Shown: piece by piece, positions 57,327 to 63,938 of the stretch | Layout: each line of letters begins with the position of its first letter | Numbering within the stretch: the first letter of the stretch is position 1 | Origin: Anaerolineales bacterium | Lineage (GTDB): Bacteria > Chloroflexota > Anaerolineae > Anaerolineales > UBA11579 | DNA length: 64,000 nucleotides | Direction of reading: 5' to 3' | Assembly: GCA_019637805.1 (NCBI GenBank) | Contig: JAHBVB010000001.1 | Span: forward strand, 509,875 to 573,874 | Made by a program: the position numbers and the translations under genes | Notes under the pieces: model-generated | Told to the model about the DNA's origin: nothing | The model's database searches: none | The model's input: the letters and a program-made list of their open reading frames with translations, nothing else

Positions 57327-57872
57327 CTAGTCCAGCGTGAAGCGCTGGATGATATCTTCGTATTGGGCTAGGCGCTCCGGCGAGGGATCCTTGCCGCCGA
57401 AGGTCAGGAAAACTTTGAAGGCCGCGCTGCCGCGCGGGTCAAAGAACTGAAAGCTGAGGGCCTCTTTGCCGTCTGTGTGGCTGGGCTTGCGCACCGCGTA
57501 CACGCTGGCCAGGCCGGCAATACGAATATGCATGTCCAGCGAGGGTGTCTGTACATTGAAAAAACCATGTGCCGTGCTGAATTTGCCAAACTCGCCCACA
57601 CACTCCAGTGTGGAGGCGGCGTTGGAAACGATGACGTGCACTTCGCCCAGAGCCTCAAAAGAGCGAATGATCTCTTCCCAACGCTCGAAGTCCAGCTCGC
57701 GCGCCAGGTCCAGCGGCATGGCTTCCACCACTTCACGTTCAGGTACGCCAAGCTGCATGGCCAAAAGCAGCACCATCTGCTTGCGGTCCTGGTCGTAGGC
57801 CTCACGAATGGCGCTGCGGCGTTCTTCTGCAGACAAACCGGTTAGCACCGGGAGTGTTCGTTCCATCACCAT
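57327..57872 (-). CDS. HutX/ChuX-like haem utilisation protein
   Basis: A 181-residue cytosolic protein. The C-terminal two-thirds match the HutX/ChuX family: GEVHVIVSNAASTLECVGEFGKFSTAHGFFNV, LDMHIRIAGLASVYAVRKPSHTDGKEALSFQFFDPRGSAAFKVFL. These proteins carry haem in the cytosol or pass it to degradation enzymes. The N-terminal helical part (RSAIREAYDQDRKQMVLLLAMQLGVPEREVVEAM) also resembles HutX. GAGGTGA precedes the ATG at 5 nt. It is oriented away from the siderophore operon and lies near the FTR1 and ECF genes. The family match is clear by pattern; conserved haem ligands were not verified. Confidence 0.7.
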   Translation of the reverse strand: MVMERTLPVLTGLSAEERRSAIREAYDQDRKQMVLLLAMQLGVPEREVVEAMPLDLARELDFERWEEIIRSFEALGEVHVIVSNAASTLECVGEFGKFSTAHGFFNVQTPSLDMHIRIAGLASVYAVRKPSHTDGKEALSFQFFDPRGSAAFKVFLTFGGKDPSPERLAQYEDIIQRFTLD

Positions 57873-57952: not shown

Positions 57953-58771
57953 TTAGAGGATTTTCAGCAGGCTCAGATCCCCCAGCAAGCCAAAATATTG
58001 CAGGACCAGCACCAGCAGGATCGAGGCGGCCAATGAGCCAATGATAAAGAGCCAGTCCGTCGGCAGAAAGCGCATGCGTCGAAAATACGTGCGCTCCGCC
58101 AGGGCGCCAAAGGCGCGCCCGTCCATGGTCAGGGCCGTGCGCTCCGCTTGGCGAATGGCGCCGGTCAACAGCGGCACGGCGTAGCGGCGCAAGCGTTCGT
58201 AGGCGCCGCGCCAGCCGGCCGCGGCGTGCACGCCGCGCACACGGTGGGCGGCACTGATCACGGAAACCTCGCTTTGCAGCAACGGGATGAAGCCAAAGGC
58301 GGCCAGCACGCTGTACCCGACCCGGTAAGGCAAACGCCACTGCTGCACCAGGGCGCGTATAAAGTCTGCCGAGTCGGTCGTCAGCGAAAAGGGCAAAGAC
58401 AGAGTGAGCAGGGCCAAAATGCGCAGGGCAGTGGAGATGGCGTAGCTAATGCCGCCTTGATACACCCGCAACGGCCCCCATTGCCACAGCAGCGGGGTGT
58501 GATCCACCAGGCTTTGGCGCACAGCCAGCGGGTACATCAGCAAAAACAGCACCGCGATCAAGGCCAGTGGGGCCAGAATTTTGGCCAGGCGCACGAAGGA
58601 GATTTTGCCCAATATCAGCAAGACAAACACGGTCAGCACGATGAAGACCAGCGGCGTCCACGGATCACTGGTGAAGAGCATAAAAGTGAACAACGCCATA
58701 TTCACCAAGAACTTGCTGAGCGGGTTGAGCTTGTGCAGGAATGATTCGCCCTGCAGGTAGACCATGCGCAT
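57953..58771 (-). CDS. ECF transporter T component (EcfT/YkoC-like)
   Basis: A 272-residue membrane protein with about five hydrophobic segments. The coupling ARG-type motifs are SAAHRVRGVHAAAGW and TALTMDGRAFGA, which contact the ATPases. The N-terminal YLQGESFLHKLNPLSKFLVNMALF is typical of EcfT. It abuts the fused ATPase gene (2-nt gap) and is the last gene of the ECF operon. It couples ATP hydrolysis to substrate uptake by the S component. Confidence 0.9.
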   Translation of the reverse strand: MRMVYLQGESFLHKLNPLSKFLVNMALFTFMLFTSDPWTPLVFIVLTVFVLLILGKISFVRLAKILAPLALIAVLFLLMYPLAVRQSLVDHTPLLWQWGPLRVYQGGISYAISTALRILALLTLSLPFSLTTDSADFIRALVQQWRLPYRVGYSVLAAFGFIPLLQSEVSVISAAHRVRGVHAAAGWRGAYERLRRYAVPLLTGAIRQAERTALTMDGRAFGALAERTYFRRMRFLPTDWLFIIGSLAASILLVLVLQYFGLLGDLSLLKIL

Positions 58772-58773
58772 GG

Positions 58774-60489
58774 CTAAACCCTGACCATCTGCGTGAGGGT
58801 CTGGTAGTCCTGCAAGGTGGACCAGCCTTGCATATGGGGATACTGGGTGGCCATCAGCGCCGCTAGGCGCGCCAGTGGCGGCAAATTGAGGTGCGCCCGG
58901 GCCAGCAGGTCTTCCTGGGCAAACAGCGCAGCAGGCTGCCCAAAGAATTCCAGCCGGCCCTCCAAAATTACGGCAACCTTGTCCGCGGCTTCCGCCACCA
59001 GGCGCATGTCGTGCGTGATCATAATGATGGTCTTGCCCTGAGCGTTCAGGGCGCGCAGCAAGGCCATCAGGGCCGCGGCGTTGCGCTCGTCCTGCCCGAA
59101 GGTGGGCTCATCCAGGATCAGCGTTTGCTGGCCCACAGCCAGCATGGCGGCCACGCTCAGCCGGCGTTTTTCGCCGTGACTGAGCGTGAAGGGGTTGGCG
59201 CGCGCATAGCGCGCCAGGCCAAAGGTATCCAGCAGTTGGCGGCTCTGTTCGGCAACCAGCGTCTCATCCAGCCCGGCGACGCGCAGGCCGTAGGCCACTT
59301 CGTCTTCCACGCGCTCGGTGACGAATTGGTGCTCCGGGTTTTGAAAAACATAGGCAACCTGCTCAGCCAGGCGGCGGGCATCCAGAGCATGAATGTCCCG
59401 CCCATTGAGGAAGACCTTGCCCACCGGCGGGTCCAGCAGGCCGATCAGGTGGCGGGCCAAGGTGCTTTTGCCCGCCCCGTTAGGGCCGACGATGGCCAGA
59501 AAGTCGCCCTGGCTGATCTCCATCGAAACATTGTGCAGGGCGGGAATATCGCCGTAGTGAAAAGACAGGTCGCGAATGGAATAGACGCTGCTGCGCGGGC
59601 TGGCGCCAGCGGGCGGTGCAGATGACGCGGACAGGGCCGGGTGGGCAGCCAGCAGCGGAGCCAGCACTTTGACCGCTTCGCCGATCGTGACCGGGAAGGA
59701 CGGCAGCACATGGCCGGCCAGGCGCAGCTCATGAGCCAGCATGCACACCTGCGGCGTCCAGACGCCCATCTCTTGCAGCTCTGCAGCGTAGCGGTCGAAA
59801 ATTTCGCGCGGCGCGCCGTCGGCAAAGATCTGGCCCTCGGAGTCCAGCACCAGCACCCGGTCCACCAGGTGCATCAGCTCGTCCAGCTTGTGCTCGATCA
59901 GGATCAAGGTGTGCTGGCCGCGCGCCTTGAGCTGGGCCAGGAGAGCGAAGACCTGCTGCGTGCCCACCGAGTCCAAGTTGGCGGTGGGTTCGTCGAAGAC
60001 CAGCACTTCCGGCTGCATGGCCAGCAGCGCCGCCAGGGCGATGCGCTGCTTCTCGCCGCCGGACAGGGCGTAGACCGGCCGGTGGCGAGTGTGCAGCATG
60101 CCCACCTGGCTCAGGGCAGTTTCCAGACGCGCCTCCATTTGGGCCGGGTCCAGGCACAGGTTTTCCAGCCCGAAGACGATCTCGTCCTCAACGGTCAGGG
60201 TGGCGAATTGCGCATCCGGATCTTGAAAGAGGATGCCAACCCGTTGGGCCAGCTGGGCCACGGAGGTTTGCTGCGTGTCGGCGCCGGCCACATGCACCTG
60301 CCCGGCCAACACCTCGCCGATGGAGTGTGGGATCAGCCCATTGAAGGTCAGGGCCAGGCTGCTCTTCCCGGAGCCGGAGGCTCCCAGGATCAGCAGGGTT
60401 TGGCCCTGGGGTACCTGCAGAGACAGGTCGCGCAAAATCGGTCGTTTGCGCCCTGTGTATTTGATTGTCAGGGCCGAAACATCAATCAT
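58774..60489 (-). CDS. ECF transporter fused double ATPase (YkoD-like)
   Basis: A 571-residue protein with two ABC ATPase domains. Domain 1: Walker A GASGSGKSS, signature ALSGGEKQR, Walker B VLVFDEPTANLDS. Domain 2 from about 295: Walker A GPNGAGKST, signature LSHGEKRRLSV, Walker B LILDEPTFGQDERN. The two domains correspond to EcfA1 and EcfA2 of other systems fused in one chain, as in YkoD. It works with the T protein and S component encoded next to it. Confidence 0.93.
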   Translation of the reverse strand: MIDVSALTIKYTGRKRPILRDLSLQVPQGQTLLILGASGSGKSSLALTFNGLIPHSIGEVLAGQVHVAGADTQQTSVAQLAQRVGILFQDPDAQFATLTVEDEIVFGLENLCLDPAQMEARLETALSQVGMLHTRHRPVYALSGGEKQRIALAALLAMQPEVLVFDEPTANLDSVGTQQVFALLAQLKARGQHTLILIEHKLDELMHLVDRVLVLDSEGQIFADGAPREIFDRYAAELQEMGVWTPQVCMLAHELRLAGHVLPSFPVTIGEAVKVLAPLLAAHPALSASSAPPAGASPRSSVYSIRDLSFHYGDIPALHNVSMEISQGDFLAIVGPNGAGKSTLARHLIGLLDPPVGKVFLNGRDIHALDARRLAEQVAYVFQNPEHQFVTERVEDEVAYGLRVAGLDETLVAEQSRQLLDTFGLARYARANPFTLSHGEKRRLSVAAMLAVGQQTLILDEPTFGQDERNAAALMALLRALNAQGKTIIMITHDMRLVAEAADKVAVILEGRLEFFGQPAALFAQEDLLARAHLNLPPLARLAALMATQYPHMQGWSTLQDYQTLTQMVRV

Positions 60490-60498
60490 TCCAGCCCG

Positions 60499-60831
60499 CT
60501 AACCAGGAAAGAAGTATTTGAAATCCTGGTAAAGGAAAACCACCAAAATTGAGATCATGATCACGCTCAGCGCCAGATAGCGCCAGCGCCACGACGTGTT
60601 CCATAAATTGAAGATGTTGTAGATGATCATCCCCAGCGCCAGGATATCAATGGCGGCGGCGATCCCCGTAGAAAAGGCGCCGCCGAAGCCGAGGAAGGGC
60701 AACAAAAAAGGCAGGACCACATATTGCAAAGTGCAGCGAACGGCCACAAAGACCAGGTAACCGCCCGTGAGACGATCACTGCGTTTCTGCACAACCGGGC
60801 TGGGCGCCGCCAACTCAGATCTCTTCAACAT
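60499..60831 (-). CDS. Small membrane protein inserted in the ECF operon
   Basis: A 110-residue protein with three or four hydrophobic segments (about 25-47, 52-76, 83-103), a basic N-terminus (LKRSELAAPSPVVQKRSDRLTGG) and no motif I recognise. It overlaps the S component gene (60815) by 17 nt and ends 10 nt before the ATPase gene, so it is clearly in the operon. The canonical YkoEDC operon has no such gene. It may be an auxiliary or specificity subunit. Name and function are unknown. Confidence 0.65.
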   Translation of the reverse strand: MLKRSELAAPSPVVQKRSDRLTGGYLVFVAVRCTLQYVVLPFLLPFLGFGGAFSTGIAAAIDILALGMIIYNIFNLWNTSWRWRYLALSVIMISILVVFLYQDFKYFFPG

Positions 60832-61393
60832 TGGCCTTTCCTAAAGCTGTGTTGCCCAGCACACCAGTGCGGGCGACTGCGTCCGCCAGAGCCTTGGCCA
60901 GCAGGCCGCACACCGCGAACGTGACGCCCGAGAGCACCAGGGCCACCAACACCAGCGCGTTCCATTCGAACTCCGCAGAGCGCAACACCGAACCCAGGAT
61001 CAGCAAGAAAACCGCCAGGCCGGTGGCCGCCCCGGCAGTGAGCAGACGCGGCAGGGCGAAGTCCTTGTAGCGCGTGTTGAGCCAGATGAACAGTTCGCCC
61101 ACCAGGCCGATCAAGATGCTGACCGCCAGCACAATAAAGCCATAGGGCGTGAAAGGCATGCTGGTCAGACCGCCGATGGCGCTGGCCAGGAAGCTGGCGC
61201 CTGGCTTGCGCACCACGTAAGCGGCGAACACCGCCGGCAGAAAATAAATGCCGCCAATCAGAGAGCGGGTGAACAAGCCACCCACGCCCAAAAAGGCCAC
61301 ATACGCATAGGTCACCGGGATGAGCAGCACGCCCAAAGCCAGACCGATCACCAAAGTGACCATCAAATCACGGGTATTCCATTTTATCCGCAT
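60815..61393 (-). CDS. ECF transporter S component, YkoE-like
   Basis: A 192-residue membrane protein with six hydrophobic segments. Motifs GGIYFLPAVFAAYVVRKPGASFLASAIGGLTSMPF and LIGLVGELFIWLN are those of YkoE, the S component for thiamine or its hydroxymethylpyrimidine precursor. ATG 61393 has GAGGAG at a good distance; an earlier in-frame start at 61426 would lack it. No TPP riboswitch was seen upstream. The substrate is therefore inferred from the family only. Confidence 0.85.
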   Translation of the reverse strand: MRIKWNTRDLMVTLVIGLALGVLLIPVTYAYVAFLGVGGLFTRSLIGGIYFLPAVFAAYVVRKPGASFLASAIGGLTSMPFTPYGFIVLAVSILIGLVGELFIWLNTRYKDFALPRLLTAGAATGLAVFLLILGSVLRSAEFEWNALVLVALVLSGVTFAVCGLLAKALADAVARTGVLGNTALGKANVEEI

Positions 61394-61490
61394 AAGAACT
61401 CCTCGTCGCTCAAGCAGTTTTACCATCTAACCCGGCAAGTGAATATGTAACTTGACTCGTTTTACCGCCAGATGGCGAATTCAGCCAATC

Positions 61491-61628: not shown

Positions 61629-63938
61629 TTAAGCGCGCTGGCGTTTTCTCAGACCTTCCGCCAGGTAATAACTGCCGATCACGAAAGCCGCCGCAGAAAA
61701 CTGCAGCAGCAGCCCCTCCCAGGAGGGATAGACCCCAAACCACATGCTGAACCAGGTGGGGAAGCTCAACCCAGAGACCAGCGTGGCCGGCATCCAGCCT
61801 ACCAGCTGGAAGACATACACGGTCTTGCCCACCATGACCAGCAAAACCGCTCCGATCATGATGCCGGTCACGATCAGCATCTTTTTGTGCGGCAGGCGGG
61901 CCTGAAAGCGAAAGGTCAGCAGGCCGACCAGCAAGGTGAAAGCCAAGCCGATCGCCACGCCGCCCAGCACGACGGAGGTGCCGCCGTCCAGCACCAGGGC
62001 TTGCAAGAACAGGACGGTCTCAAAACCTTCGCGATAGACGCTGGTGAAGCCGAGCGAAACCAAGCCCAGCAGCAAACCCGTCTCGCCGGAGAGCAAGCTG
62101 CGCTTGCGGGCATGGAAGCGCGCCAACCAGCCGTCCCAGTAGCTTTTATGGAAGAACCAATTGGTGATCAACAGCAAGACGATGATGGCGATCAGCGAAA
62201 TCACCGCCTCCAGCTTTTCGCCATAGCGCGCCAGGGCTTGCAACACCTCGCGCGCCAGGGTCCAGGTCAGCACAGTGGCCAGCAAGGCCAGCCCGCTGCC
62301 CAGCCATAGCGGCTGGCGATATTTGCGGCCTTCAGCGGCTTTGAAGCTGCCCATCAGCGAGGCCAGGATCAGCACCGCCTCCAAGCCCTCACGGAAGACG
62401 ATCACGGCCGCATTGCTCAGAATAGAAGCCGGCGTGCTGGAGCCTGAGAGCAGGGTTTCCACCTCGGCCAACTGGGCATCCAGGGCGACGCGCACGGAGC
62501 GCACCTCTTGCAGGGGGGCCTGCTCAGACAGCAGACGGCTGAGGCCCACGGTTTGGCTGTTGCCGTTCCAGAACAGCTCCTCCACGCGCAGCTTGAGGTC
62601 CGGCGCCATGGCGATCAGGCGCGCCTCCGGCCCGCTTTCCATAATGGCATAGGCCTCGATGCGGGCCGATTCGGCCGCGGCATAATCGCCGCCCCGTACA
62701 GCATTCTCCATTTGGTCCAGCATCGAATCGATCACATCAAAATCGCCGGAGGTGCTGCCTTGTTTCCACTCGGCAGGGATGACTTCGTTCAATAGGGCCA
62801 ACAGTTGCTCGGCGCTGGTGCGCATGTCGGCGGCGCTGGCCACCGCGCCGCCGCTGTTGGCGCTGCGCAGCATGGCGTTCAGTTCACTGAGGTGCGTCTG
62901 GGCCTGCTGGGTAGCTGGCGCATCCAGCTCGGCCAGCAGGTCGCGCAAATCATCGAAGGCGGCCTGGGCCGCTTCCTGAAAAGTGACCGCTTCCTGGATC
63001 TCGAACTGCAAAGTCACGCGCCCATCCGAGACGCCGCGGCCGTATTCGACCGAAACCAGATTGACATAGCGCAGCAGCTGACCCGCCCGGCGGGATTGCT
63101 CTGCCGGGCTCAGCGGTGCGGCGCGGAAGCCTTCCAGGACCGCGGTCACCGCCTCCAAGCGCGCATCCAGCGGCTGGCCGGCTAGGGCTGCCACAGTCAG
63201 CTGCTGGAAGGCCTGCTGGGCGGTCTGCAACGCGGCCGCGCCGCGCTGCTCCTGGTACGCCGCGCTCAGCAGGCCAAAGTAGCCCTGTGCCAGGCCGGCC
63301 AGTTCAGCGCGGCGCACGGTGAAGCCGCTGGCCTCAGCCAGCTGCAACTCACGCAGCGCCTCGCCCAGGCGGGCCTGATAAGCATCAAACAGATCCGCCC
63401 GCAAGAACTGCAGGGCGGTCTCGGCATCCATTTCAGATGCGGCCAGGCGCTGCACGGCCAGGGTCGCATCCGCATTGGGGCGCGCAAAGCGGTTAACCGT
63501 ACGGTACTCGCGCAGAGCCAGCCAGGCTTGAGCCTGGCCATGCTCGCCCGCCCGCATGGCCTGTTCGACCATGCGGTAGCTGCCCGCCAGCACAGCCGTC
63601 CAAGCCAGGGAACGCTGGGTGGCAAAAGCGGGCGCATCGGCGCCGGCCAGCGCGTCTTCCATGGCGCTAAAGGCCTGGTCAGCGGATACCGCCGCGTCGG
63701 CCGCAGGGCCAGCCAGCAGAGGCCGCAAACTGCCATAGGCCGCTTGGGCCTGCGCAAAAGCGGCCAAGCCATCGCCGCCCGCCAGCAGATCGCGTTGGGC
63801 GGCAAACAGCGCGGCGCGCATCTGCTCCGCCAAGTCCTGCGGAGCGGTTGAGGCCGCGGCCTGGACCGGGCTGGCGCACACCGCCAGCAAACTTACACAA
63901 ACAAGCAGAATAAAGGTGTTAAACGCAATGCGTCTCAC
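61629..63938 (-). CDS. FTR1-family iron permease with long extracytoplasmic N-terminal domain
   Basis: A 769-residue protein. The signal peptide (FNTFILLVCVSLLAVCASPVQA) precedes about 480 residues of mostly helical Ala-rich sequence (repeated QA..A, e.g. LLAGGDGLAAFAQAQAAYGSL). The C-terminal 260 residues are FTR1: seven membrane segments with the iron motifs FREGLEAVLIL (about 513) and YREGFETVLFL (about 635). It transports ferrous or ferric iron across the membrane, usually with an oxidase or cupredoxin; none is encoded here. The helical domain may collect iron before transport. The start is GTG 63938 with AAGGA at 6 nt. Confidence 0.9.
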   Translation of the reverse strand: MRRIAFNTFILLVCVSLLAVCASPVQAAASTAPQDLAEQMRAALFAAQRDLLAGGDGLAAFAQAQAAYGSLRPLLAGPAADAAVSADQAFSAMEDALAGADAPAFATQRSLAWTAVLAGSYRMVEQAMRAGEHGQAQAWLALREYRTVNRFARPNADATLAVQRLAASEMDAETALQFLRADLFDAYQARLGEALRELQLAEASGFTVRRAELAGLAQGYFGLLSAAYQEQRGAAALQTAQQAFQQLTVAALAGQPLDARLEAVTAVLEGFRAAPLSPAEQSRRAGQLLRYVNLVSVEYGRGVSDGRVTLQFEIQEAVTFQEAAQAAFDDLRDLLAELDAPATQQAQTHLSELNAMLRSANSGGAVASAADMRTSAEQLLALLNEVIPAEWKQGSTSGDFDVIDSMLDQMENAVRGGDYAAAESARIEAYAIMESGPEARLIAMAPDLKLRVEELFWNGNSQTVGLSRLLSEQAPLQEVRSVRVALDAQLAEVETLLSGSSTPASILSNAAVIVFREGLEAVLILASLMGSFKAAEGRKYRQPLWLGSGLALLATVLTWTLAREVLQALARYGEKLEAVISLIAIIVLLLITNWFFHKSYWDGWLARFHARKRSLLSGETGLLLGLVSLGFTSVYREGFETVLFLQALVLDGGTSVVLGGVAIGLAFTLLVGLLTFRFQARLPHKKMLIVTGIMIGAVLLVMVGKTVYVFQLVGWMPATLVSGLSFPTWFSMWFGVYPSWEGLLLQFSAAAFVIGSYYLAEGLRKRQRA

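Follow-up and report, generated by a model that had tools for sequence, protein, structure and literature searches.

A small membrane protein encoded with a YkoE-type ECF transporter and among iron and haem genes in Anaerolineales

The thiamine importer YkoFEDC of Bacillus subtilis (PMC5037267) is an energy-coupling factor (ECF) transporter. It resembles the operon studied here in its homologous substrate-binding (S) component, its fused ATPases (EcfAA), its transmembrane component (EcfT), and the placing of these in one operon. The operon studied here lies on the minus strand of a 64,000-nt stretch of an Anaerolineales bacterium (contig JAHBVB010000001.1, positions 509,875 to 573,874), which we call the window. 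Compared with YkoFEDC, it lacks the thiamine-site residues and the thiamine pyrophosphate (TPP) riboswitch, and it encodes a 110-residue membrane protein with three predicted helices, named SMALL here, where YkoFEDC has the soluble YkoF. No YkoF-like gene was found within the window operon. In the window's genus, iron and haem genes surround the operon. Our favoured explanation, held with about even confidence, is that EfeO-FTR1-YkoE-SMALL-EcfAA-EcfT-HutX forms an iron/haem acquisition cassette, in which SMALL is accessory to iron/haem handling and not to the ECF module as such.

The cobalt and nickel importers CbiMNQO/NikMNQO and NikKMLQO (PMC2667541) are likewise group I ECF systems with an extra small membrane protein. 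CbiN and NikN have two transmembrane (TM) segments, compared with three predicted in SMALL; Pfam gave no CbiN match to SMALL at E 1, and the window S component is YkoE-like and not CbiM-like. Because helix number and sequence differ, SMALL is not a CbiN, though it may work like one. The haem importer LhaSTA of Staphylococcus lugdunensis (PMC7299338) is an ECF system among iron/haem genes, and we liken the operon of the window's genus to it by location, not by the sequence of LhaS. LhaSTA has three subunits only, and the haem ligand suggested for LhaS is a His, which is not conserved in the SMALL-linked YkoE clade. The same paper also mentions a streptococcal haem ECF importer. The iron importer EfeUOB (PMC3577903) has its counterpart in an EfeO-like gene and an FTR1/EfeU-like gene immediately upstream in the window genome and at loci L032 and L250; unlike in EfeUOB, SMALL follows EfeO-FTR1, with or without an ECF module. 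Haem ECF importers (PMC7299338) and small accessory membrane subunits for cobalt and nickel (PMC2667541) are already known. Our searches of open-licence PMC listings showed no description of an iron-linked ECF importer of the YkoE type, or of the SMALL protein.

Layout of the operon

61629..63938, minus strand: FTR1/EfeU-like iron permease, upstream of ykoE (Pfam PF03239, firm)
60815..61393, minus strand: YkoE-like ECF S component that lacks the residues of the thiamine site (Pfam PF09819, 66.8 bits; cut-off 25.2 bits)
60499..60831, minus strand: SMALL, membrane protein of 110 aa with three TM helices predicted, family motif RCxxxYxxxPxxxP and a late Asp
58774..60489, minus strand: EcfAA, two fused ECF ATPases, YkoD-like (PF00005 twice; NCBIfam ECF_ATPase in both halves)
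57953..58771, minus strand: EcfT, YkoC/CbiQ-like transmembrane component (PF02361, 111.5 bits)
57327..57872, minus strand: HutX/ChuX-like cytosolic haem-utilisation protein (PF06228), 81 nt after ecfT

The order on the minus strand is FTR1, ykoE, SMALL, ecfAA, ecfT, hutX. For every one of these genes except SMALL the domain assignment is firm. The original prediction, made from the letters of the window, had YkoE-, YkoD- and YkoC-like genes around a 110-residue protein whose gene overlaps ykoE by 17 nt; all four genes were found in place, and the overlap was borne out at 60815-60831. With a YkoE-family S component, EcfT, and ECF ATPases all in one operon, this is a group I ECF system of the YkoEDC type. 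The window YkoE matched PDB 5EDL with 72 bits (E 4.8e-19). The longest ykoE open reading frame (ORF) begins at 61426, and the start at 61393 was favoured by a Shine-Dalgarno sequence (GAGGAG, 5 nt upstream). The SMALL start is preceded by AGGAAAGG, which is Shine-Dalgarno-like. In the other family that carries the operon, ykoE and SMALL also overlap or abut (L044, L047). An apparent YkoE-SMALL fusion ORF of 326 aa at L044 was rejected, as translation gave the YkoE stop with SMALL in a different frame.

The SMALL family and its linkage to YkoE

The operon including SMALL was present in 9 of the 11 genomes of the window's genus, and the two genomes without it are 68% and 76% complete. In a phylum sample of 400 genomes, PF09819 was found in 92 and SMALL in 30, and the two were adjacent by coordinates in seven. 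Wherever this sample held a YkoE of the SMALL-linked clade, SMALL was in place between ykoE and ecfA (7/7). Among 396 genomes of the class Anaerolineae, a profile of the SMALL-linked YkoE found 31, with scores of at least 235 bits in 13 genomes and at most 114 in the other 18. SMALL lay directly downstream of the clade YkoE in 12 of the 13. The exception was G675, to which L032 belongs as judged from identical matches; here the order is EfeO-FTR1-SMALL-EcfAA-EcfT-monooxygenase. Its YkoE is 26 kb away on the same contig, near FecB/FecC-type genes, and no EcfA or EcfT was seen in the 13 kb read around it. In a 109-row YkoE tree the 21 SMALL-linked rows formed one clade (support 100/96); since the window counts twice among them (as WINDOW and L058) and SMALL itself led to many of them, the unbiased linkage figures are 7/7 and 12/13. 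The SMALL operons were found in two families, one on the side of the window's genus and one of Thermoflexales type.

The idea of a new ECF subunit, put forward in the original prediction, has only partial support: SMALL is fixed in one YkoE clade, but this does not extend to ECF transporters in general. SMALL was absent from most related operons, being adjacent to YkoE in 7 of the 92 YkoE-bearing genomes of the phylum sample and in none of the 18 class genomes with a weaker-scoring YkoE. Because of this absence, and because 25 of the 38 SMALL-bearing genomes of the class carry it neither beside YkoE nor in an ECF locus that was seen, SMALL is not a general ECF subunit.

SMALL is a real, conserved gene under purifying selection. 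Between the window and L027 its dN was 0.06 and its dS 1.13, and over 21 pairs within one genus dN/dS (NG86) ranged from 0.05 to 0.43, with dS near saturation. AlphaFold2 (30 sequences, mean pLDDT 68, pTM 0.43) placed helices at residues 13-46, 53-75, and 82-107. Where three or four membrane segments had been proposed, this model makes three likelier than four. Across 46 diverse members, R32, C33, Y37, P41, P45, and D103 were invariant. SMALL had no significant match to a curated family in Pfam, NCBIfam, or PHROGs, a PDB profile search gave only a chance-level match (HmuU, E 0.99), and a fold search with the weak model gave nothing usable (best E 1.4). No SMALL gene was found in plasmid records.

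A contig scan with two peptide patterns, which misses distant members, gave 32 SMALL loci, of which 31 are in Chloroflexota. The remaining one, L057 (Anditalea), was dropped as a chance match of 22 residues. In the SMALL tree the operon type fell within a larger clade (28 rows, support 98/94) that also held FTR1/monooxygenase-type copies and a small number of lone ones. Because that clade also contains these other types, SMALL would have stayed while the ECF module around it was gained, or else lost, more than once; with 122 columns only, the tree cannot fix the order of events. Two SMALL genes were present in 9 of the 11 genus genomes, and the window genome has a second, stand-alone paralog, L123 (G000:C2:275503-275796). 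At L118:6001-6144, roughly 3 kb away from FTR1, a decayed remnant of SMALL was seen; the same genome has a YkoE-SMALL operon that is intact.

Thiamine site, riboswitch, and other YkoE variants

The YkoE of B. subtilis holds thiamine through Y46, W49, E77, Q95, and D131 (PMC5037267). None of these residues was kept in any of the 21 SMALL-linked YkoE rows. In 87 other Chloroflexota YkoE rows, Y46 was kept in 25, W49 in 61, E77 in 26, Q95 in 59, and D131 in 41; W49, Q95, and D131 occurred together in 40 rows and none of these three in 17, the alignment being reliable near W49 and Q95 but less reliable near D131. A TPP riboswitch preceded ykoE at none of nine SMALL-operon loci (eight distinct), compared with seven of nine control YkoE loci, and none was found in the window. 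In the genus member G002 the genes for thiamine diphosphokinase and a ThiB-type thiamine-binding protein are preceded by the TPP riboswitch, at a distance of 255 kb from the operon. As the thiamine site is missing, the SMALL-linked YkoE is probably not part of a thiamine/hydroxymethylpyrimidine (HMP) system, and the likeness to ykoFEDC of B. subtilis, on which the original prediction had drawn, is misleading.

Other YkoE arrangements were also seen. Five loci of another Chloroflexota family give a second example of an additional small membrane gene in this position: an unrelated 2-TM protein of about 100-125 aa is encoded there between EcfA and a YkoE that has diverged. Two of these proteins were searched in Pfam and had no significant match.

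2-TM protein between YkoE and EcfA: L204:3625-3939, L208:3648-3947, L209:3677-4051, L210:3704-4003, and L212 at about 2554-2817

At L192, L193, and L196, which belong to the window's order, the YkoE-like protein has a soluble-looking C-terminal extension (whole ORFs of 468-498 aa). Two tandem YkoE-like genes stand before EcfAA-EcfT at L189:3040-4258 and L191:3040-4203.

Iron and haem genes around SMALL and its possible role

Around the window operon the following features were found in addition to FTR1 and hutX:

G000:C1:573884-575005, just past the window end: EfeO-like (imelysin) gene that precedes FTR1; the Pfam match to imelysin comes from its relatives at L028 and L032
61582..61614, strand not applicable: perfect inverted repeat between FTR1 and ykoE, 16-nt arms, 1-nt loop
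51532..56410, plus strand: FecB-type binding protein, FhuF-like reductase, two FecCD-like permeases, and an ATPase, labelled as a siderophore or haem ATP-binding cassette (ABC) importer; context

HutX followed ecfT in 9/9 genus operons, and FTR1 stood ahead of the operon in 7/9. Eleven of 20 genomes carrying SMALL had just one FTR1 gene, and in all of them but G630 it was no more than about 3 kb from a copy of SMALL (10/11); in G377 that copy is decayed. The 38 class genomes with SMALL carry it beside YkoE (12), in an ECF locus without YkoE (G675), or elsewhere (25); for these 25 the flanks were read in 15 and the other ten were judged by the absence of a clade YkoE alone. Six of the 25 carry a SMALL of the operon clade. 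One of the loci without ECF is L250 in G648, with the order EfeO-FTR1-SMALL-monooxygenase, and the SMALL-monooxygenase order was also seen in G682 and G630 (L249, L251) and at L033 and L038. The L032 monooxygenase belongs to PF03992 (ABM), of which 12 genomes had one to four genes each, and matched the HmoB and Rv3592 structures (E ~1e-11), with TT1380, whose function is unknown, closer. The L250 monooxygenase matched NCBIfam haem-degrading models below their cut-offs. Beside SMALL there were also DtxR-type iron regulators (L096-L098, L113, L114, L033, L034), cytochrome b with a multihaem cytochrome or CcmF (L260, L261, L264), and SdhC (L259), these neighbours being named from Pfam runs on a few of each. 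In total, 22 of 70 SMALL loci had a scored iron/haem gene within 3 kb (8/19 with YkoE, 14/51 without), compared with 0 of 58 YkoE loci without SMALL; near-copies are included and all eight YkoE-linked positives come from the window's genus. The distal-window control was positive in 7/36, six of these through the same loci's own EfeO or FecCD genes, and so is not independent.

Next to YkoE, SMALL, or FTR1 a membrane protein was found repeatedly for which Pfam gave no significant family:

256-259 aa membrane protein: L033:4569-5309, L034:2701-3477, L037:4525-5247, L118:3299-4075, and L252:7003-7725

For the favoured iron/haem acquisition cassette we propose the following mechanism. The YkoE-derived S component, its thiamine pocket lost, would now bind something other than thiamine, most likely haem or a different compound of iron. 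EcfT and EcfAA would power uptake as their homologues do in other group I ECF importers. SMALL would be translated in step with YkoE through its overlapping start. In cobalt uptake the role of CbiN is substrate hand-over or loading. SMALL would probably sit beside the S and T components and hand over or load substrate in a CbiN-like manner. Because the SMALL family also adjoins FTR1, IsdG-type monooxygenases, DtxR, and cytochrome genes without ECF, its place of action would be expected on the side of the substrate or of the membrane, and it would not be a structural part of every ECF complex.

Several observations weigh against this explanation. The iron/haem gene list was drawn up after the neighbours had been seen, so the comparison of 22/70 with 0/58 was not blind. 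No scored iron/haem gene was present at 48 of the 70 SMALL loci, including the stand-alone paralog of the window genome, and most Chloroflexota SMALL copies outside the class also lacked such a neighbour. The location among iron/haem genes holds for the window's genus and not for the other family, where none of 11 Thermoflexales-type YkoE-SMALL operons had a scored gene within 3 kb; at L041, L042, and L055 of this type a CobW-type GTPase and a URO-D-like gene lie further down on the opposite strand (named from Pfam on L041 only). An invariant His is absent both from SMALL, where Cys33, Tyr37, and Asp103 are the only invariant ligand-like residues, and from the SMALL-linked YkoE clade. Ferrochelatase was present in 8/11 genus genomes, so the genus makes its own haem, and haem auxotrophy was rejected as a reason for haem import. 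Because of the perfect palindrome between them, a possible transcript end or processing site, FTR1 and ykoE may be on separate transcripts.

The alternative that SMALL is an obligate fourth subunit of the SMALL-linked ECF clade, an analogue of CbiN/NikN that binds YkoE and EcfT and is needed for loading any substrate, is a serious though doubtful possibility. The 12/13 linkage, the overlapping or abutting genes in both families, and L032, where SMALL stays with EcfAA-EcfT though YkoE is 26 kb off, argue for it; CbiN and NikN, small 2-TM accessory proteins of group I ECF systems without similarity to each other (PMC2667541), give it a precedent. However, the same SMALL clade occurs in G648, G682, G630, G357, G596, and G665 with no YkoE or EcfT match in the flanks read and no clade YkoE in the genome, and most SMALL genes of the phylum stand alone. 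A more far-reaching proposal, which we consider rather unlikely, is a new four-part haem/iron ECF importer that combines an S component converted from thiamine use with a three-helix protein as obligate fourth subunit. The SMALL family would then consist of membrane proteins that handle haem or iron throughout the phylum Chloroflexota, and could work with FTR1-type importers and in cytochrome assembly as well. That SMALL has an unrelated function, for example in membrane or redox homeostasis, and came into the operon and the iron loci by chance or co-regulation, is unlikely as well. The 48 loci without scored genes are consistent with it, as are PAS/GGDEF-like and glutamate synthase-like neighbours, named by eye from sequence. 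The retention of SMALL between ykoE and ecfA in two families and the repeated direct adjacency to FTR1 or the monooxygenase would both be hard to obtain by chance where a genome has a single FTR1 and between one and four ABM genes.

Two further explanations have very little probability in our assessment. The homology to 5EDL is what speaks for a usual YkoEDC transporter of thiamine/HMP in which the added gene is incidental. The loss of the pocket residues in 21/21 rows, the TPP riboswitch at 0/9 loci, and the TPP-controlled thiamine ABC-type locus elsewhere in G002 already disfavour this. Equally improbable is that SMALL can replace YkoE as the substrate-binding component. L032, with its EcfAA-EcfT locus without YkoE and its clade YkoE alone near FecB/FecC-type genes, suggested this; but it is one genome only, its YkoE may act in trans from the same contig, and S components have 6-7 helices (PMC7299338), compared with three predicted in SMALL.

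An association with iron is known for only a small number of ECF importers, and little has been described of additional membrane subunits in group I systems other than those for cobalt and nickel. If an iron/haem acquisition cassette is the right explanation, the window would represent a YkoE branch with a changed substrate, together with an unnamed membrane protein family that has a testable link to iron and haem.

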